A DNA stretch of 37,187 nucleotides from Promethearchaeota archaeon (GTDB taxonomy: Archaea; Asgardarchaeota; Lokiarchaeia; Sigyniarchaeales; SOKP01). Positions within the stretch are counted from its first letter, which is position 1; every line of letters starts with the position of its first letter. The notes below the pieces were generated by a model that was given only the letters and a program-made list of their open reading frames with translations, was not told the origin of the DNA and did not search any database. The position numbers and the translations under genes are program-made. Shown here piece after piece: positions 615-11,907 of the stretch. The DNA lies in contig JAEOTH010000199.1 of NCBI GenBank assembly GCA_016839915.1, positions 1 through 37,187 of the forward strand, in the 5' to 3' direction.

Positions 615-639
615 GAAACGATCTGGTTTATTGAGATTA

Positions 640-1389
640 ATGATTTGCGATGTTCTTATAATTAAAGATGGATTACCATTATTATCCAAGAGTTTTTGTA
701 ATTCTACTAGTATTAAAAATTTGTTTTCAGAAGTAGATAATCTTATTATGGTATCTGGTTTTTTTTCAGCATTAAATTCATTTTCTGATTCATTTGAAGA
801 TATGGGTACCATCAGCGAGCTAAAATTATCAAATAATAATCTTAAACTCTCCTTTTTAAAAGATGGGAATATACCTGAATTAATATATTTGGCTACTTAT
901 GATAAAAATTCGAATCTTATGAATGTACAAACATTTCTAAAAAAATTATCTGTATCATTTCAGCAAAAATTTAACATAGAGCAAATTATAAAATGGAATG
1001 GAAAACTAGACAGTTTTAAGTCATTTGACTCTGTAATAGAGCAATTAATTAAAGAAGACGAGAAATCTAAACAAATTAAATATAACGATCAAGTAGTGGA
1101 TTGGCTAAAAAGTTTTGAGAGCGAGTCAGATGAAGGTTTACAATATAAATTCGAATCAGAGAAAGTTGAGTCAATCCCTGAATACTTTAATTATATCCCA
1201 ATTTTCACATCATCCAAAAAAGTTAATCCAAAATATTATTTAACAGGAGAAATATCATGTAGAGTTTATGAACAAATAGATGGGAAAAAATCAATCAATC
1301 AAATATCTAATCAATTGATGGTTAAAGAAATTCAAGTATATAATATATGTAAAAATCTCATTAAAATGGGTTTTATCTCATTAAATTAA
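640..1389 (+). CDS. Longin-like N-terminal domain plus C-terminal winged helix (Asgard-type regulator)
   Basis: A 249-residue soluble protein. The start (MICDVLIIKDGLPLLSKSF) has the beta-strand pattern of longin/roadblock-like domains, which act as GTPase-associated platforms and are numerous in Asgard genomes. Residues about 190-249 (around IDGKKSINQISNQL and ending NLIKMGFISLN) look like the winged-helix unit found at the end of bacterial DUF4388-type proteins. The middle (about 100-185) is charged and helical. The ATG at 640 is chosen; a TTG nine bases upstream is possible. It lies 156 bases upstream of the CheR-CheD fusion on the same strand, with hairpins between them. Domain calls rest on pattern resemblance. 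A role linking small GTPases or CheD-like sensing to output is inference. Confidence 0.55.
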   Translation: MICDVLIIKDGLPLLSKSFCNSTSIKNLFSEVDNLIMVSGFFSALNSFSDSFEDMGTISELKLSNNNLKLSFLKDGNIPELIYLATYDKNSNLMNVQTFLKKLSVSFQQKFNIEQIIKWNGKLDSFKSFDSVIEQLIKEDEKSKQIKYNDQVVDWLKSFESESDEGLQYKFESEKVESIPEYFNYIPIFTSSKKVNPKYYLTGEISCRVYEQIDGKKSINQISNQLMVKEIQVYNICKNLIKMGFISLN

Positions 1390-1545: not shown

Positions 1546-3669
1546 TTGGTGTGTAAAATTTCCGTATCCTCGATTAATCCTTCGTCTATAGATGCTCTTA
1601 TAGAAGAATTAAAGAGCGCAACAGGAATGAAATTTGACCATTATCAAAGAAAATTTCTTGAAAAAAGAATTGATTTTAGGATGAAAAATCTAAATCTTAA
1701 TTACTATCAAGAGTATATAAAATATATTCGAGAGAATCCTGTTGAATTAGATTTATTTTTAGATAAATTTACAATTAATTATACCTATTTTTTTAGAAAC
1801 TATAATATTTATAAGAATTTTGAGAAATATATTAAATTCTATGTTAATTATCACAATAAAATTCTTCGTGTTTGGTCAGCTCCTTGTGCTACTGGAGATG
1901 AACCTTATTCTATTGCAATTGTATTAGATCAACTGAAAAAGAATAATAAAAATTTTCCTGATTTTAAAATAGTCGCCTCAGATATTGATCCAGCTGCGCT
2001 GAAAGTAGCAAAAAACGGTGTTTATGGAGAATATTCAATACATGAAACCCCAGAGACTTATTTGAAAACATATTTTTCAAAAAAAGATACTGAACTTGGT
2101 CCAGAATATATTCTAATTGATGAAATCAAAGATAATGTCGAATTTATTAAAGAGGATATCATTAAAGGTCATAACAAGAATATTAAATATGATATAATTT
2201 TTTGTAGAAATTTCTTTATATATATAAATCAATATGCTAGAGAAAAATTATTACAGATTTTAGAATCCCGGCTTTTTGATGGGGGATTATTAATTTTGGG
2301 TGGATCAGAAACACTTCCCCATAAAAATACTAATTTTAAATCAATTAATTTGAGAGATCGTTTTTATATTAAGAATTTTTCAACTCAAGAAGTAAATTTT
2401 AAGAATAGAATTTACAACCTTTTTAAAAACCAATCGGTTTCTAAATATTATGGGGGAAAATCATCAAGGATACAAATTGAGCAACAAGATGATAAAGAAA
2501 TTAAAAAAATTAAAACACATTTAAAAACAGTGCCTAAATCCTTACCAAGAGTAAAAATCTCTGAAAAAAGTATTAAAAAGAAGAAAATTAAACCTGATAA
2601 AGAAATTAAGAACTTATATGAAACCGAAAGGATGAAAACCGAGGTCAGGATAACAGGTATTGAAGTAAATAATAGGTTCAATGGGAATGGATACAAATAT
2701 CGCAATAATCTATCACCAGAATCTACGAAAAATCCAGATGAAGAGTTTAAAATATATACATATAAAAAATGGGAACAATCCATAAGGCAACGTGAGCTAT
2801 TCGCAGAACAGAGAGAAAAATTTATAGAAGAACGGATTTCTTTTTTAGATGAAAAGTATAATAAAATTAAACAAAAAAGAAAAGAAGTAAATGATTTACT
2901 CAAAGATATTAAAGATCAAGAAGTAGAAGTTAAAAACCGTATAGAAATTCTAGAAAGGCTAACTAAGAGAGTAGAAAAAAGAGAAAAATTATTAGAACAA
3001 AAAGAAAAGCAATTTAACCGCCGAATAAGACAGGTAGGAGATTATACTAGACAAGTTATGCAACAAGAAGTTCAAATTAGTGGAATTTCAAAAGAGTTAA
3101 TAGAAAACGAAGAATTACAAAGTATTTATGAACAAAAACGTATAGATCAAATAGAGAATGCATATGATAAGAAAGAACTAATAATCCCTATGGGATATTA
3201 TGGCTTAATTAATTCTTTTGACAAATATGAAACTGCTACCAAATTCATAATTGAAGGATTGGGATCGGGGATTGCTTTAATTCTCAAGGATCCAATAAAT
3301 AATATTTTTGCTATGTCCCATATATCATTACCTTCTTCATCAGCTTCAAAACAGGGGTATCATTTACTTTTCCCTCATACTTTTGTAGATACTTCAGTTA
3401 AAGATCTGTATAATAACTTACTATATAATGGAGCTAATAAAATAAATATTACTGCTCTTATTATTGGTGGAGCAAAATTATTTTTAGACTATGATATGAC
3501 ATATCAAGAAAATATCGATGCTGTAAAAGCGCAGTTAGATACAAATCAAATAAAACTTGAAGCTGAAGATATAGGTGGATTAAGTGAAAGAGCAGTTGTC
3601 TATGATACTATTAATGATGCCCTTTATGTTAAAAAAACCTGGGAATTTGAGTATAGAAAAATTAATTAG
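1546..3669 (+). CDS. CheR-type methyltransferase - coiled coil - CheD-like domain fusion
   Basis: 707 residues. Residues about 10-275 are a complete CheR: N-terminal helical domain (TGMKFDHYQRKFLEKRI), SAM-binding motif around WSAPCATGDEPYSIA (residues 110-124), acidic loop ASDIDPAAL and DIIFCRNFFIYI. CheR methylates glutamates on chemoreceptors. Residues about 300-400 are a Lys-rich linker and about 400-530 a long charged coiled coil. Residues about 544-700 match CheD, the receptor glutamine deamidase: GLGSGIALILKDP, AMSHISLP, IIGGAKLF, AEDIGG. The CheD catalytic Cys (GLGSC in the family) is Gly575 and the catalytic Thr is also absent, while the His is kept (H592). The CheD part is therefore probably a binding module. 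The start is TTG 1546 or GTG 1549; the first ATG would cut the CheR N-domain. No other chemotaxis gene is in the window. Confidence 0.88.
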   Translation: MVCKISVSSINPSSIDALIEELKSATGMKFDHYQRKFLEKRIDFRMKNLNLNYYQEYIKYIRENPVELDLFLDKFTINYTYFFRNYNIYKNFEKYIKFYVNYHNKILRVWSAPCATGDEPYSIAIVLDQLKKNNKNFPDFKIVASDIDPAALKVAKNGVYGEYSIHETPETYLKTYFSKKDTELGPEYILIDEIKDNVEFIKEDIIKGHNKNIKYDIIFCRNFFIYINQYAREKLLQILESRLFDGGLLILGGSETLPHKNTNFKSINLRDRFYIKNFSTQEVNFKNRIYNLFKNQSVSKYYGGKSSRIQIEQQDDKEIKKIKTHLKTVPKSLPRVKISEKSIKKKKIKPDKEIKNLYETERMKTEVRITGIEVNNRFNGNGYKYRNNLSPESTKNPDEEFKIYTYKKWEQSIRQRELFAEQREKFIEERISFLDEKYNKIKQKRKEVNDLLKDIKDQEVEVKNRIEILERLTKRVEKREKLLEQKEKQFNRRIRQVGDYTRQVMQQEVQISGISKELIENEELQSIYEQKRIDQIENAYDKKELIIPMGYYGLINSFDKYETATKFIIEGLGSGIALILKDPINNIFAMSHISLPSSSASKQGYHLLFPHTFVDTSVKDLYNNLLYNGANKINITALIIGGAKLFLDYDMTYQENIDAVKAQLDTNQIKLEAEDIGGLSERAVVYDTINDALYVKKTWEFEYRKIN

Positions 3670-5770: not shown

Positions 5771-6233
5771 TATCAAAATTATTATTATATTTTCTATATT
5801 TTTCAATAATTTTTTTTTTTATTAAACTTGAACTATTTAACTCGTATTTATCATAATAATTTTCGAGTCTCCTAATCTCTATATGATTTAAACCCTTTTC
5901 ACTGAGCCCCTTTTTTAGGGTTTCAATACTGTATTTTTGATCCGGCCCCAGAAGAATGATGTCTGGATTAATCTCTTCAACTGTTCTAAGTGTATTATTA
6001 TCACTTCTTCCCAATCTAGCATTTTTCACATTTTTGAGATTTCTTACAACTTCCAATCTTTGTTCTTGGGGCACTATAGGTCGTTCACCCGAAAAAAGTT
6101 CACGATTTTTATCAGTAGCAACAACTACATATACATTTCCCAAATTTGCTGCTTCATTAATAAGATAAATGTGGCCAGTATGAATTAAATCGAATGTTCC
6201 AGCTACTAATACTCGTGTTTTTTTTTCATTCAT
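5760..6233 (-). CDS. ribL: FAD synthetase (archaeal RibL nucleotidyltransferase)
   Basis: 157 residues. The N-terminus has the cytidylyltransferase-like nucleotide-binding motif GTFDLIHTGH (residues 12-21, HxGH). The following strand LGNVYVVVATD, the segment RLEVVRNLKNVKNARLG and the C-terminal SSSLIKKKI (counterpart of the ISSTxIR motif) all fit. Family and position before ribK support RibL, which adenylylates FMN to FAD. The ATG at 6233 is chosen because it gives MNEKKTRVLVAGTFD, the normal family start; an upstream ATG at 6293 would run into the translin gene. Its end overlaps ribK. Confidence 0.87.
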   Translation of the reverse strand: MNEKKTRVLVAGTFDLIHTGHIYLINEAANLGNVYVVVATDKNRELFSGERPIVPQEQRLEVVRNLKNVKNARLGRSDNNTLRTVEEINPDIILLGPDQKYSIETLKKGLSEKGLNHIEIRRLENYYDKYELNSSSLIKKKIIEKYRKYNNNFDNGR

Positions 6234-6276
6234 CTTAGTCTGCTCATATATACATGTTAGATAGTTTAGGTTAAAA

Positions 6277-6888
6277 CTATATATTATTTTCAAAACATTT
6301 CTTCAAGTCATCCATTTGAATAGCTAAAGAAATATCTCCTCTCGTTTTTTCGATTAAATTTCTAGCAACATCTACTTTATGTCGTAAATCCTGAGTTACT
6401 CCAGCAGGGTAATCCAACGTAAATAAATGGGTATAAATATCATCCATTTTTTCTAGAATTGAATTTAAATCTTCAACCCGCGAATTCCTAATATTATCTA
6501 AAGCATATCTTCTTAATTCTCCAATAACATCTGCTAAACCTAATACATAATTGAAAGGATTAATCTTTAAATCAAGAGGTGATGGAATCTCTTTTTTGTC
6601 AATAATTGAAAAGAAAGCAATTGCTTCAACAAATTCTTGCTCTGGTGTTTTTAAGTATTTAAAAAATTGCCCAGGATTTTTGTTAACTAAATTTTGGAGA
6701 TTCTCGTGATTAATTTTTATCTTTTCTATTCTTTTATGAAATTTATCAAATTCTTTTCTATGAATATTTTTTATAGCAATACTACAGTCTCTAACAATAT
6801 TACGAGATAAATTCAAGATCTCTTCCCTATCATGAAATAGTATATCTAATAACTCAGATATTTCTGAAAAAGCTTTTTTAAGATTCAT
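6277..6888 (-). CDS. Translin/TRAX family protein
   Basis: A 203-residue all-helical protein. The C-terminal third carries the translin signature (YPAGVTQDLRHKVDVARNLI, then EKTRGD), and the middle has EFVEAIAFFSI and LADVIGELRRYAL, where family members keep acidic residues used for RNA cleavage in TRAX. Archaeal members are oligomeric RNases; the eukaryotic complex C3PO degrades passenger strands and tRNA fragments. It is first in a leftward block with ribL and ribK, 43 bases ahead of ribL, and diverges from thrS. A functional link to flavin synthesis is not evident. Confidence 0.88.
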   Translation of the reverse strand: MNLKKAFSEISELLDILFHDREEILNLSRNIVRDCSIAIKNIHRKEFDKFHKRIEKIKINHENLQNLVNKNPGQFFKYLKTPEQEFVEAIAFFSIIDKKEIPSPLDLKINPFNYVLGLADVIGELRRYALDNIRNSRVEDLNSILEKMDDIYTHLFTLDYPAGVTQDLRHKVDVARNLIEKTRGDISLAIQMDDLKKCFENNI

Positions 6889-7013: not shown

Positions 7014-9074
7014 ATGAAAATCTTGTTAATCCACTCAAAAAATGTCGAAGTTATAAAAAATAAAGAGGCTACCAGCAACCCCCAGGATTTTAAAGAGGAT
7101 TCTATTAAGATGGAAGGCTTAATTCTTGTTTGTTATGTTTCAGTTGAAGATCAAGATACATACGATACAGATTTGATAGCAAAGCAAGGTGCTGAAGAGA
7201 TTGAGGCAGCAATATTGCAAATTTGTGATTTTCCTGAAAATATCAGGCTACAAAATGAAGAAATAAGAGGCTTTAATAAAAAAATAGAAAGAGGAGAAAT
7301 AAAAGGAAAACCAAAGAAAATAAAAGAACTTATAATGGAACGAGACAATTATCGAGTGGATAAAGTTTTAGTATATCCATGGGCGCATTTAAGTAAATTT
7401 CTTAGTAAGGAGGCAAATGCAATGGAAGTTTGTCCAAAAATTGTTGAAAATTTACTAAAGAAAGGAATAGAATCAAAATTTTCCCCTTTTGGATGGTACA
7501 AATCTTTTAAAATAAATTGCTTAGGTCATGAGTTAGCTGAAATGTATAGAGATGTTAAATTAGCGATTAAACCTGAAGAACAGGCTAAAAATTCAATATT
7601 TAAAGTAATTACTACATCAGGAGAAGAGATTGATTTAAATTTTGATGAAGATCAAAAGTTATTGCCATCACAAGAAATTAAAGAAGAAAATTTTCGATTA
7701 TTCTTAAATTCTGAATTAGGTTCAAGATTAATAGATAAAGGAATAGAACCCGCTCATATTAAGGTTATGAAGGAGTTTGAACTATTAGATTTCGATCCTA
7801 ATACTGATGCAGGAAATTTTAGATGGTATACAAAGGGAATCATCATGAAAAATTTAATAAAAAATTTTATTGAAGACAGATTAATTGATTATGGAGCAAT
7901 TCTTATAGACACCCCTGTTATGTATACCGTGAAAAATAAGAAATTAACAGCTCAAACGGCACGATTTCCAGCAAGGAGTTATTGGGTTGAATCTGGAAGT
8001 GATAGATATCTCTTAAGATACGCTTGTGATTTCTTACTTTTTGATTTATTTTCCCAAATGAATTTGAAACCACATTATCTTCCTTTGCGAGCATATGAAT
8101 ATGAACAGTATGCATTTAGACGTGAATTAGAGGGTGAATTAAGCGGTTTAAGAAGATTACGCGCGTTTATAATGCCAGATATGCATACAATGTGCAAAGA
8201 TATTGAATCTTCTGTTGATGAGTTTATAAAGCAATACGAATTAATTAAAAGCTTGGAAAGAGATTTAGGGATAAAAACTTATGTTACTTTTAGAGTAACA
8301 CAGGAATTTTATAAGGAAAATAAGGACTGGATTATTAATTTAATCAAAACCGAAGAGCATCCTGCGCTATTAGAACTTTGGGAGGATAGATATTATTATT
8401 ATGTACTAAAATTTGAACGAAATGTTCTTTCTGCTCAAAACAAAAGTGCTACTCTAGCAACTAACCAGATAGACGTAGAGAGCTCCTTAGAATATATGAC
8501 CGATACTGATGGTTTTAAAAGGCAGAAATATAATATATCTTTCATAGACAATGATGGTAGTCTAAAACATCCAATTATTCTTCACAATTCTCCAACTGGT
8601 GCTATAGAAAGAGTTTTATGGGGATTAATTGAATCGGCTATTCGAAATAAGGATAAAATTATTCCTGGATTTAAAACTTGGTTATCTCCGATTCAGGTCC
8701 GAATAATTACCGTGAATGATGAACAGAACGAGTATGCTGAAAAATTACTTAATATCCTTAACGGAGAAGAATTCAGAACAGATTTCGATGACCGAGAAGA
8801 AACAGTAGGAAAGAAAATAAGACAATCTGAAATTGAATGGATACCCTATACAATAATAATAGGTAAAAAAGAACAACAGAACCATACAATTTCTATTAGA
8901 AAAAGATTAATTGGTGAACCATATGGTACAAAAAAACAAACATCTGAACAAATTAATAATGTAAAGTTAGAAAAATTGCTTGAACTACTTGAAGAAGATA
9001 CATTAAAATTTCCAAAATACAAATTACCGATTCCATTTAGAAAGATCTCAACAAGAGTCTATTTTAGACACTAG
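7014..9074 (+). CDS. thrS: Threonyl-tRNA synthetase, archaeal type
   Basis: 686 residues. The N-terminal ~150 form the archaeal ThrRS editing domain, related to D-aminoacyl-tRNA deacylase, which removes mischarged Ser: it begins MKILLIHSKNVEVI and includes YPWAHLSKFL and SPFGWYKSFKINCLGHE. The class II catalytic core follows: YLLRYACDFLLFD (zinc-site Cys region), ELSGLRRLRAFIMPDMHTM (motif 2 with the zinc-site His) and ILHNSPTGAIERVL (motif 3 region). The last ~110 residues are the anticodon-binding domain (LSPIQVRIITVNDEQNEYAE). The length is slightly above the usual archaeal ~610-650. The ATG start gives a standard N-terminus. It charges tRNA-Thr. Confidence 0.95.
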   Translation: MKILLIHSKNVEVIKNKEATSNPQDFKEDSIKMEGLILVCYVSVEDQDTYDTDLIAKQGAEEIEAAILQICDFPENIRLQNEEIRGFNKKIERGEIKGKPKKIKELIMERDNYRVDKVLVYPWAHLSKFLSKEANAMEVCPKIVENLLKKGIESKFSPFGWYKSFKINCLGHELAEMYRDVKLAIKPEEQAKNSIFKVITTSGEEIDLNFDEDQKLLPSQEIKEENFRLFLNSELGSRLIDKGIEPAHIKVMKEFELLDFDPNTDAGNFRWYTKGIIMKNLIKNFIEDRLIDYGAILIDTPVMYTVKNKKLTAQTARFPARSYWVESGSDRYLLRYACDFLLFDLFSQMNLKPHYLPLRAYEYEQYAFRRELEGELSGLRRLRAFIMPDMHTMCKDIESSVDEFIKQYELIKSLERDLGIKTYVTFRVTQEFYKENKDWIINLIKTEEHPALLELWEDRYYYYVLKFERNVLSAQNKSATLATNQIDVESSLEYMTDTDGFKRQKYNISFIDNDGSLKHPIILHNSPTGAIERVLWGLIESAIRNKDKIIPGFKTWLSPIQVRIITVNDEQNEYAEKLLNILNGEEFRTDFDDREETVGKKIRQSEIEWIPYTIIIGKKEQQNHTISIRKRLIGEPYGTKKQTSEQINNVKLEKLLELLEEDTLKFPKYKLPIPFRKISTRVYFRH

Positions 9075-10480: not shown

Positions 10481-11749
10481 TTACGACAGTTTTTTATTTT
10501 TTCCAGCACTTCCAATTTTCCTCATAATCCATTCAGGTGTTCCGACACCATTGAAATATTTCAACCAAACATACATAAGGAGGCCCAAAAAACCACAATA
10601 ACCAACCCAAATAATTGGGACAAAGATTATTGAAAATTGGCCCACATATAAAGGAAGAAATAAATATTGAATTATAAAAAGAGAGAGACTTGTTTTTCCA
10701 TAAAATAAAACTAACTTTATGACATCATTCATTTTCTTTTTTATATCAATAACATAAAAACATATTGCAATAAGTAAAAAAGCAATACCAAGGTTGTAGA
10801 ACATATTATGTGCTGTACATCTTACCATAAAAATTGGCATTCCGTCAAAGTGAACATAATTTTGCTGATTAGCGATAGCTAATAAGTCAATATGCAAATA
10901 TTCTGATTTTACAATAACTCCTGGAGATGCGTGAGTTCCGGGAATTAATCGTGCCAACCCAGTTTCCCAGATGTTGAAAGCAACACCCCTCGGAATAATT
11001 AAAAATATTCCCGCTAAAACAAATACTATCCCATAAATCGAAAATATTCTAAATAACTTATAATAAGCTTCCTTAGTCCCTTTTATCATTGCCTCGTAAA
11101 GGAACTCACCAAATATGGTAGACATAAAGCAAACTGCTAAATATGGTAAAATTGGAACTTGAGGAAGTGGAGAGGTTATAATAAAATGCAAGATATTCAT
11201 TAATAGGCTTCCTGATATTTTACCCTCATATAATACGTCTCGTATCCAAGGAGAGAAGTAGATTACTATTAAACCAATCACAGCACGCCATTTCTTGTTA
11301 AGCTTTATTGCATAATAAGATAAAATCTGAGAGAATCCAATAAACATTAGGATATTCCAACCCCATAAATTTGCAGGAAAGGGAACTGCTTCACCTTCTG
11401 TTAATAAAGAAACGGGATTGAATAGCACACCTATAATCATAATTACTACTCCTCTTGTCAAAATTCCATTACGAATCGCTTTTTCCGACATTTTCCCTTT
11501 TTTTCTTTTATAACTAAAAACTACACTTAGAGCGGAAAGAAAAACAAATAGAGAAGGTCCTAGAACATCCATGAATGCAAAAACGAGCCCATATACATAA
11601 CGCCAATCTTTATCAAACCAACTGAGCCCAACATGGGCCAAAATTATCCACACTATAGCAAATCCTTTCACGTAGTCTATTGAAGCTATACGTTTTGATG
11701 TATCATTTTTAAGATCATTGTTTAAAACTTCCTCAATTGGAGTTGACAT
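10481..11749 (-). CDS. Membrane acyltransferase, HGSNAT/DUF1624-like (copy 1)
   Basis: 422 residues with about 10-11 hydrophobic segments. The N-terminal hallmark is RIASIDYVKGFAIVWIILAH (Arg20, Asp25, His39), then a helix with FMDVLGPSLFVFLSAL, as in heparan-alpha-glucosaminide N-acetyltransferase (HGSNAT) and DUF1624 proteins; acyltransferase-3 proteins have a similar start and remain an alternative. HGSNAT-type enzymes move acetyl groups from cytosolic acetyl-CoA across the membrane to a sugar amine. A paralog lies two genes upstream (13215-14615), with a GT87-like protein between, suggesting modification of surface or lipid-linked glycans. The gap to the GT gene is 158 bases. Confidence 0.7.
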   Translation of the reverse strand: MSTPIEEVLNNDLKNDTSKRIASIDYVKGFAIVWIILAHVGLSWFDKDWRYVYGLVFAFMDVLGPSLFVFLSALSVVFSYKRKKGKMSEKAIRNGILTRGVVIMIIGVLFNPVSLLTEGEAVPFPANLWGWNILMFIGFSQILSYYAIKLNKKWRAVIGLIVIYFSPWIRDVLYEGKISGSLLMNILHFIITSPLPQVPILPYLAVCFMSTIFGEFLYEAMIKGTKEAYYKLFRIFSIYGIVFVLAGIFLIIPRGVAFNIWETGLARLIPGTHASPGVIVKSEYLHIDLLAIANQQNYVHFDGMPIFMVRCTAHNMFYNLGIAFLLIAICFYVIDIKKKMNDVIKLVLFYGKTSLSLFIIQYLFLPLYVGQFSIIFVPIIWVGYCGFLGLLMYVWLKYFNGVGTPEWIMRKIGSAGKNKKLS

Positions 11750-11907
11750 TCTTGATCCTACTCAAATAATAATAATATCCTAAAAATTTTGTTAATATTA
11801 TTGAACATTAAACATATTAAAACCTTTTTGTTATTATTATAGTTAGTACATAATACACGTAAAACGCTCTATATTTAGAAATAAATGTAGTAAACCTTCC
11901 TTAAATA

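Follow-up and report, generated by a model that had tools for sequence, protein, structure and literature searches.

In Bacillus subtilis, CheD is reported to matter more through its binding to CheC and to receptors than through deamidation (accessible text of PMC3513319). In that text, a CheD-F102E protein deamidates, binds CheC and receptors poorly, and shows null-like behavior; since a deamidating but poorly binding CheD behaves in this way, binding appears to be the main job of CheD in that organism. The same text gives Met-Phe at positions 101 and 102 as the criterion for a CheC-binding CheD and describes CheC and receptors as competitors for CheD. In Halobacterium, CheD was described as an interaction hub, and a loop from CheY to methylation through CheC, CheD, and CheB was proposed (accessible text of PMC3579733). 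Likewise, a set of che genes from lokiarchaea is already known, along with putative arrays (accessible text of PMC9834061). Here we describe an open reading frame (ORF) from a 37,187-nucleotide stretch of lokiarchaeal DNA (the window) that joins CheR to a CheD-like domain. We consider it reasonably probable that this ORF specifies a lokiarchaeal chemosensory receptor methyltransferase with a C-terminal pseudo-CheD used for binding. Genomes and loci of the analysis carry G and L numbers, respectively; G000 is the genome of the window, and g3 and g9 are genera.

The fusion ORF encodes CheR_N, CheR, a Lys-rich linker, a long helix or coiled coil, and CheD in a single open frame (Table 1). In a Pfam scan, CheR_N (PF03705) scored 34.7 bits against a cut-off of 27, CheR (PF01739) scored 160.8 bits, which exceeds its curated cut-off, and CheD (PF03975) scored 52.6 bits against a cut-off of 25, matching residues 595 to 697; the scan of the fusion protein returned no match to TPR repeats. 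The NCBIfam CheD models began their alignments at residues 563 to 571, with every score below the strict equivalog cut-off. Lysine makes up 19% of the linker. Windows covering residues 421 to 516 showed heptad-range hydrophobic periodicity above that of shuffled sequences, and the full-length AlphaFold model, which was poor (pLDDT 45; alignment of 7 rows), nevertheless formed a single helix across the region. The same CheR-CheD architecture was found again in many genomes, and an assembly chimera was therefore rejected. The nine loci of a homolog search largely belong to genomes that are also counted under G labels and are not independent of them.

The TTG codon at position 1546 is probably not the true start. 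Four of seven homologs read TTG GTG TAA at this place, and a conserved GGTG/GGCG-N6/7-ATT/ATA arrangement favors the ATT at 1558 as the probable start codon. The spacing of 6 to 7 nt between the tetramer and ATT or ATA was found at the window and at L001 to L006 and L008, and several homologs carry in-frame stops just upstream. The tetramer reads GGTG in seven of the eight loci compared, window included, and GGCG in L004.

Table 1. Features of the fusion locus and of the related operon CheR remnants. Coordinates are window positions unless a locus number is given; T. maritima and B. subtilis denote the reference CheD proteins.
Feature	Coordinates	Strand	Basis or remark
CheR - linker - coiled coil - pseudo-CheD fusion ORF	1546..3669	+	707 codons counting from TTG
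GGTG Shine-Dalgarno-like tetramer, putative	1548..1551	+	6 nt 5' of ATT 1558; role inferred
Probable non-AUG start codon ATT	1558..1560	+	ATT in 7/8 loci, ATA in 1/8 (L006); role inferred
CheR_N all-alpha domain, residues 16-65	1591..1740	+	Pfam
CheR SAM-binding methyltransferase domain, residues 78-270	1777..2355	+	Pfam; motif alignment
Lys-rich variable linker, residues 278-395	2377..2730	+	Composition; 23-54% identity to six genus homologs
Long helix / coiled coil, residues 398-513	2737..3084	+	AlphaFold model; periodicity
CheD domain without catalytic Cys, residues 545-707	3178..3666	+	Pfam, NCBIfam, phmmer, AlphaFold
Gly575, replacing nucleophile Cys27 (T. maritima numbering)	3268..3270	+	phmmer alignment with 2f9z_C; Asgard CheD alignment
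His592, equivalent to His44, retained	3319..3321	+	phmmer alignment with 2f9z_C; Asgard CheD alignment
Thr612, replacing Lys59 (kept by 31/34 non-fused rows)	3379..3381	+	Asgard CheD alignment
Phe646, aligned to Phe102 of B. subtilis CheD, retained	3481..3483	+	CheD alignment; Phe102 binds CheC and receptors
Tyr653, replacing Gly101 (kept by 34/34 non-fused rows)	3502..3504	+	Asgard CheD alignment
Deleted operon CheR remnants	L045 about 11441-11760; L106 about 7481-7760; L144 about 6101-6450		L144 C-terminal piece weak

The best sequence match of the CheD half in a phmmer search was Thermotoga maritima CheD (2f9z_C; E = 6.4e-16). The best of five AlphaFold models of this half had a pLDDT of 70.6 and a pTM of 0.72 (the remaining four had pLDDT values of 38.6 to 48.9), and the best PDB match of the CheD-half model was again 2f9z_C (E = 3.5e-13; TM = 0.74). 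Under the residue numbers that we assume for 2F9Z, the catalytic Cys27 column is occupied by Gly575 and the His44 column by His592. There is no Cys anywhere in the CheD half of the window. At the positions of the B. subtilis Met-Phe pair, the fusion reads Leu645-Phe646, with Phe kept and Met replaced by Leu; the genome's own Cys-bearing CheD reads Ile-Phe. Judged by its sequence, the CheD half has lost the nucleophile and retained the CheD fold and is probably a pseudoenzyme.

A first-pass annotation of the window had proposed a CheR-coiled coil-CheD fusion with a C terminus matching CheD, a Gly in place of the nucleophile, His592 at the catalytic His position, and a fold kept without the reaction. 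The Pfam matches at both ends, the linker and helix between them, the alignments with 2f9z_C and Asgard CheDs, and the structure prediction bear out the fusion, the lost nucleophile, the His, and the retained fold. The annotation also counted the catalytic Thr as lost. The Thr is indeed absent, but its absence is uninformative: the Thr21 position holds Ile569 in the fusion and likewise Ile in the genome's own Cys-bearing CheD, and Thr occurs there in 1 of 33 aligned non-fused Asgard CheDs, all of them Cys bearing. Because the other 32 also lack it, a missing Thr is not diagnostic of inactivation, and Thr loss was rejected as evidence for it.

A census of CheD (PF03975) across 227 genomes of the phylum gave 58 matches, distributed over 46 genomes and sorted by ORF into 39 non-fused proteins, 18 fused or remnant copies, and one coiled-coil-CheD protein without CheR (G015), which was not counted as a fusion; the model may miss far-diverged CheDs, as it missed that of G078. 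Both Cys and His were kept in all 39 non-fused CheDs (33 aligned and 6 read by eye). Of the aligned proteins, 21 were selected from search loci with a Cys-requiring motif, a possible source of bias in this count; every locus was retained, and no such motif was used to extract the six read by eye. Among 14 aligned fusions outside genus g3, the Cys position held Gly in seven, Ser in five, Thr in two, and Cys in none; this set excludes G078 (too diverged), G016, and G015 and includes pieces of two broken copies (G036 and G030). None of the same 14 rows kept Lys59 or Gly101, both of which are conserved in non-fused CheDs (Table 1), whereas all 14 kept the GG pair, 12 kept the His, and 12 kept the equivalent of Phe102; G025 and G072 had lost both of the latter residues. 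In these alignments, residue loss in fused CheDs is specific (Cys, Lys59, and Gly101).

The Ser and Thr residues at the Cys position, in 5 and 2 of the 14 rows, are what would be expected if the CheD half were still catalytic through another nucleophile, be it that residue or a neighboring Cys. A Cys does lie two residues downstream in G039 and G042, and the rows of G069, G070, G071, and G078 have a Cys elsewhere. The first-pass annotation would have been contradicted by homologs that keep a Cys nearby in space; of the 15 fusion rows outside g3, nine have no Cys. Rescue of the window protein by a nearby Cys was rejected, as its CheD half contains none. Continued catalysis also has to contend with Gly at the Cys position in 7 of 14 rows, window included, and with the loss of two further conserved positions, and we regard it as the least probable of the readings weighed here.

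The absence of Cys, Lys59, and Gly101 might instead mean that the CheD half is functionless and decaying and that CheR alone matters. Broken or remnant copies in six members of the window's genus agree with such decay, as does the fast evolution of the fused CheD half outside the genus, where g9, G072, and G078 have long branches in the CheD tree. Within the genus, however, the CheD half (residues 545 to 707) of G000 is 78 to 83% identical to six homologs, exceeding the identity of CheR (residues 58 to 277; 65 to 81%) in all six comparisons, while the coiled coil is 36 to 76% identical and the linker only 23 to 54%. The non-fused CheD of G000 is 68 to 80% identical to that of four of the same six genomes, and by this comparison conservation of the dead CheD domain within the genus equals or exceeds that of the live one. 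Where the gene breaks, moreover, the CheR part breaks too. We therefore give little credence to decay of the CheD half. As to the origin of the fusion, the CheD tree and the CheR tree required two changes each, with G016, G072, and G078 as long rows, and the CheD tree placed the g9 fusions on the non-fused side. All fusions may share one origin, with which these trees are compatible.

We take FFR, EPY, SDID, and CRNxxIY to be the active-site motifs of CheR. In the fusion of the window, Arg84, EPY (119 to 121), Asp146, CRN (220 to 222), and Tyr226 are all present by alignment. Ten fusions were aligned with Salmonella CheR, and nine of them agree with it at the FFR, EPY, SDI, and CRN..Y motifs, apart from minor differences such as SDIN or SDIS in G069 to G072 and G078. 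The CheR half of the fusion looks live as a methyltransferase, and methylation of MCPs is predicted. The tenth aligned fusion, from G016 (L100:2709-4244, + strand), is a mirror image: its CheR motifs are altered (FFN, EAY, SNFN, and no Tyr), and its CheD keeps GLGSC and the His. This form is from a single genome, and its CheR lies on a very long branch of the CheR tree.

The statement of the first-pass annotation that no receptor, CheA, CheB, CheC, or CheY is visible is correct for the window, which contains no che partner genes, and does not extend to the genome (3.65 Mb in 221 contigs; completeness, 93.94%; contamination, 6.89%). On four other contigs, four ORFs gave five MCP matches, and contig C66 carries a che operon. 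In transcription order, it encodes CheW, CheY, CheA (Hpt, P2, dimer, HATPase, and CheW domains), two conserved unknowns, CheW-CheC, a gelsolin-like protein, CheB, CheD with GLGSC, CheC, a Roadblock-Ras-like GTPase, and CheB. A PF01739 search of the genome found the fusion as its sole CheR; a further CheR may lie on missing sequence. In G027, G025, G038, and G043, a separate operon CheR follows the gelsolin-like gene; the operon CheRs read in relatives are 299 to 347 aa long. In G000, G040, and G033, this place holds pieces only, with N-terminal matches of 33 to 52 residues in all three and C-terminal pieces that are clear in G000 and G040 and weak in G033 (E = 0.1 to 0.58). Because N- and C-terminal remnants persist there, the operon CheR of G000 appears to have been deleted in place. 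G040 has another CheR elsewhere. Since the fusion is the only CheR found in a genome that has a che operon and MCPs, we read it as a chemosensory component. A strict E/Q methylation-site pattern is present in two of the genome's own four MCP ORFs and a loose pattern in all four; none of the three with a complete C terminus ends in a pentapeptide-like sequence, the fourth being cut by a contig end. In g9 and G078, no strict methylation-site match was obtained for the MCPs that neighbor the fusion.

The first-pass annotation had also suggested a methylation module possibly outside classical chemotaxis. The location of the gene in the window's genus and in G025 would suit that suggestion: it is found away from the che operon, among housekeeping genes and in a neighborhood that is conserved. 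A gene for a 252-aa protein of no known family (window 631-1389, + strand) adjoins the fusion in the genus and in G025, including at broken or remnant loci. In three g9 genomes (G069, G070, and G071), by contrast, the fusion adjoins CheB inside a che cluster, and MCP, CheW, CheY, and CheA follow 3.6 to 4.7 kb after it on the same strand, with a few genes between, some on the opposite strand (domains assigned by Pfam for G069 and by BLAST for G070 and G071). In G069, the gene immediately after the fusion (L092:8098-8901, + strand) encodes an LCIB-type carbonic anhydrase (PF18599, 111.7 bits). The fourth g9 genome, G072, showed no other che gene on its 17-kb contig. In G078, the che cluster ends with the gelsolin-like gene and then the fusion; Pfam detects only the CheR of this fusion, and recognition of its far-diverged CheD half required a profile built from the other copies (E = 2e-11, sequence searched alone). 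With the fusion inside che clusters in these relatives, and as the sole CheR match of a genome with MCPs and a che operon whose own CheR is deleted, a role outside chemotaxis is very improbable.

Co-occurrence was counted in 19 genomes of the window's genus. All six genomes with an intact fusion (G000, G027, G035, G039, G040, and G044) have MCPs, and five of them have a non-fused CheD. None of the six with a broken or remnant fusion (G030, G031, G036, G037, G041, and G042) has a non-fused CheD, and four have MCP matches, those of G030 containing stops. No fusion was found in the remaining seven. Of these, G033, G038, and G043 carry both CheD and MCPs, and the other four lack both, although one (G034) gave a single MCP match below the cut-off. 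The difference in non-fused CheD between intact and broken fusions (5/6 versus 0/6) gave a Fisher P value of 0.015, uncorrected for ancestry. This count of co-decay would be weaker if sequencing errors explain some of the "broken" copies, as they could for the single in-frame stops of G030 and G042 and for the split copy of G036. The fusion may be dispensable, because three members of the genus (G033, G038, and G043; 76 to 94% complete) have a che operon with CheD, and no fusion was found in these genomes.

The coexistence of a Cys-bearing CheD with an intact fusion in five of six genus members raises the alternative that the pseudo-CheD is a competitor, which would sit on receptor Gln/Glu sites or tie up CheC and thereby regulate the Cys-bearing CheD rather than target CheR. 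Contest over CheD between CheC and receptors in B. subtilis lends this idea some appeal. A competitor would leave the fusion to CheR itself unexplained, however, and no second CheD match was found in the four g9 genomes that carry the fusion; we consider it improbable.

Docking by the pseudo-CheD, as first suggested from the window, is the likeliest reading, given the Phe102-type residue that is kept and the conservation within the genus. Carried on a long and probably dimeric coiled coil, the pseudo-CheD would grip MCP methylation helices or CheC. Such a grip would hold CheR on receptors that have no C-terminal pentapeptide, and it could also make methylation depend on pathway output by way of CheC and CheY-P. 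A CheR joined to a hub of this kind would be brought to receptors, and at high CheY-P, CheC could draw it off them.

The che loci themselves hold further genes of interest. A Ras-family GTPase gene is present in nine of them (L045:8117-9073, - strand, L107, L108, L109, L145, L147, L131, L132, and L133) and was not seen in L104, L106, L137, L138, and L144, some of which end at a contig edge, or in L103, L105, and L148. Of four of these GTPases scanned, three match Roadblock/LC7 N-terminally (E < 0.001), one of the three scoring above the cut-off; the Roadblock-Ras-like arrangement recalls the MglA/MglB pair downstream of Frz. A conserved operon protein (L045:11716-12297, - strand) with 12 orthologs has a weak gelsolin-repeat match, with 3 of the 13 orthologs matching PF00626 weakly and the first member scoring 20.1 bits against a cut-off of 21. 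The che cluster also keeps a 670-aa CheW-CheC fusion (L045:12367-14379, - strand) in which three stretches show the CheC motif. Archaellin (PF01917) was matched in 0 of 19 genus genomes, against 4 of 14 named genomes in the control, and an archaellum is therefore probably not the output of the system. A broader scenario, which we think rather unlikely as a whole, would start from an ancestral lokiarchaeal CheR-CheD fusion that became half-dead in opposite ways, mostly with a live CheR and a dead CheD and in G016 with a dead-looking CheR and a Cys-bearing CheD. The dead half would dock to the receptor or CheC, and CheY-P acting via CheC would move the whole methyltransferase on and off receptors. 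With no archaellin match in the genus and with a Roadblock-Ras-like GTPase and a gelsolin-like protein encoded in the che operon, the output in this scenario may be cytoskeletal instead of a rotary filament.

Compared with CheD (PF03975; T. maritima 2F9Z and B. subtilis), the C-terminal half has the same fold, family, GLGS loop, His, and GG-x-x-F motif and differs in lacking the catalytic Cys, in its changed Lys59 and Gly101 positions, and in being joined to CheR. With CheR (PF03705 plus PF01739; 5FTW and 1BC5), the fusion has both domains and the active-site motifs in common, to which it adds the linker, coiled coil, and pseudo-CheD. In pentapeptide-tethered CheR, an extra contact brings the enzyme to receptors; here, the contact would sit on the enzyme and not on the receptor. 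CheR-TPR fusions such as FrzF likewise attach to CheR an interaction module that is proposed to direct or restrict methylation (accessible text of PMC3447774), the module here being a pseudo-CheD with no TPR match. For Ca. L. ossiferum, cheA/B/C/D/R/W/Y, 15 MCPs, and putative arrays were reported, and the accessible text mentions no CheR-CheD fusion (PMC9834061). Our literature search found no description of such a fusion, which is weak evidence of novelty, since most subscription papers lay outside the search. The fusion also opens a way to study how Asgard chemosensory systems adapt; in this genus, their operon has eukaryote-like GTPase and gelsolin-like genes beside it, and the genomes showed no archaellin. 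The argument made in B. subtilis is that CheD matters by binding, and evolution appears to have run that experiment here: the nucleophile was removed, the domain was kept, and CheD was welded to the methyltransferase, which suggests a dead enzyme steering a live one.
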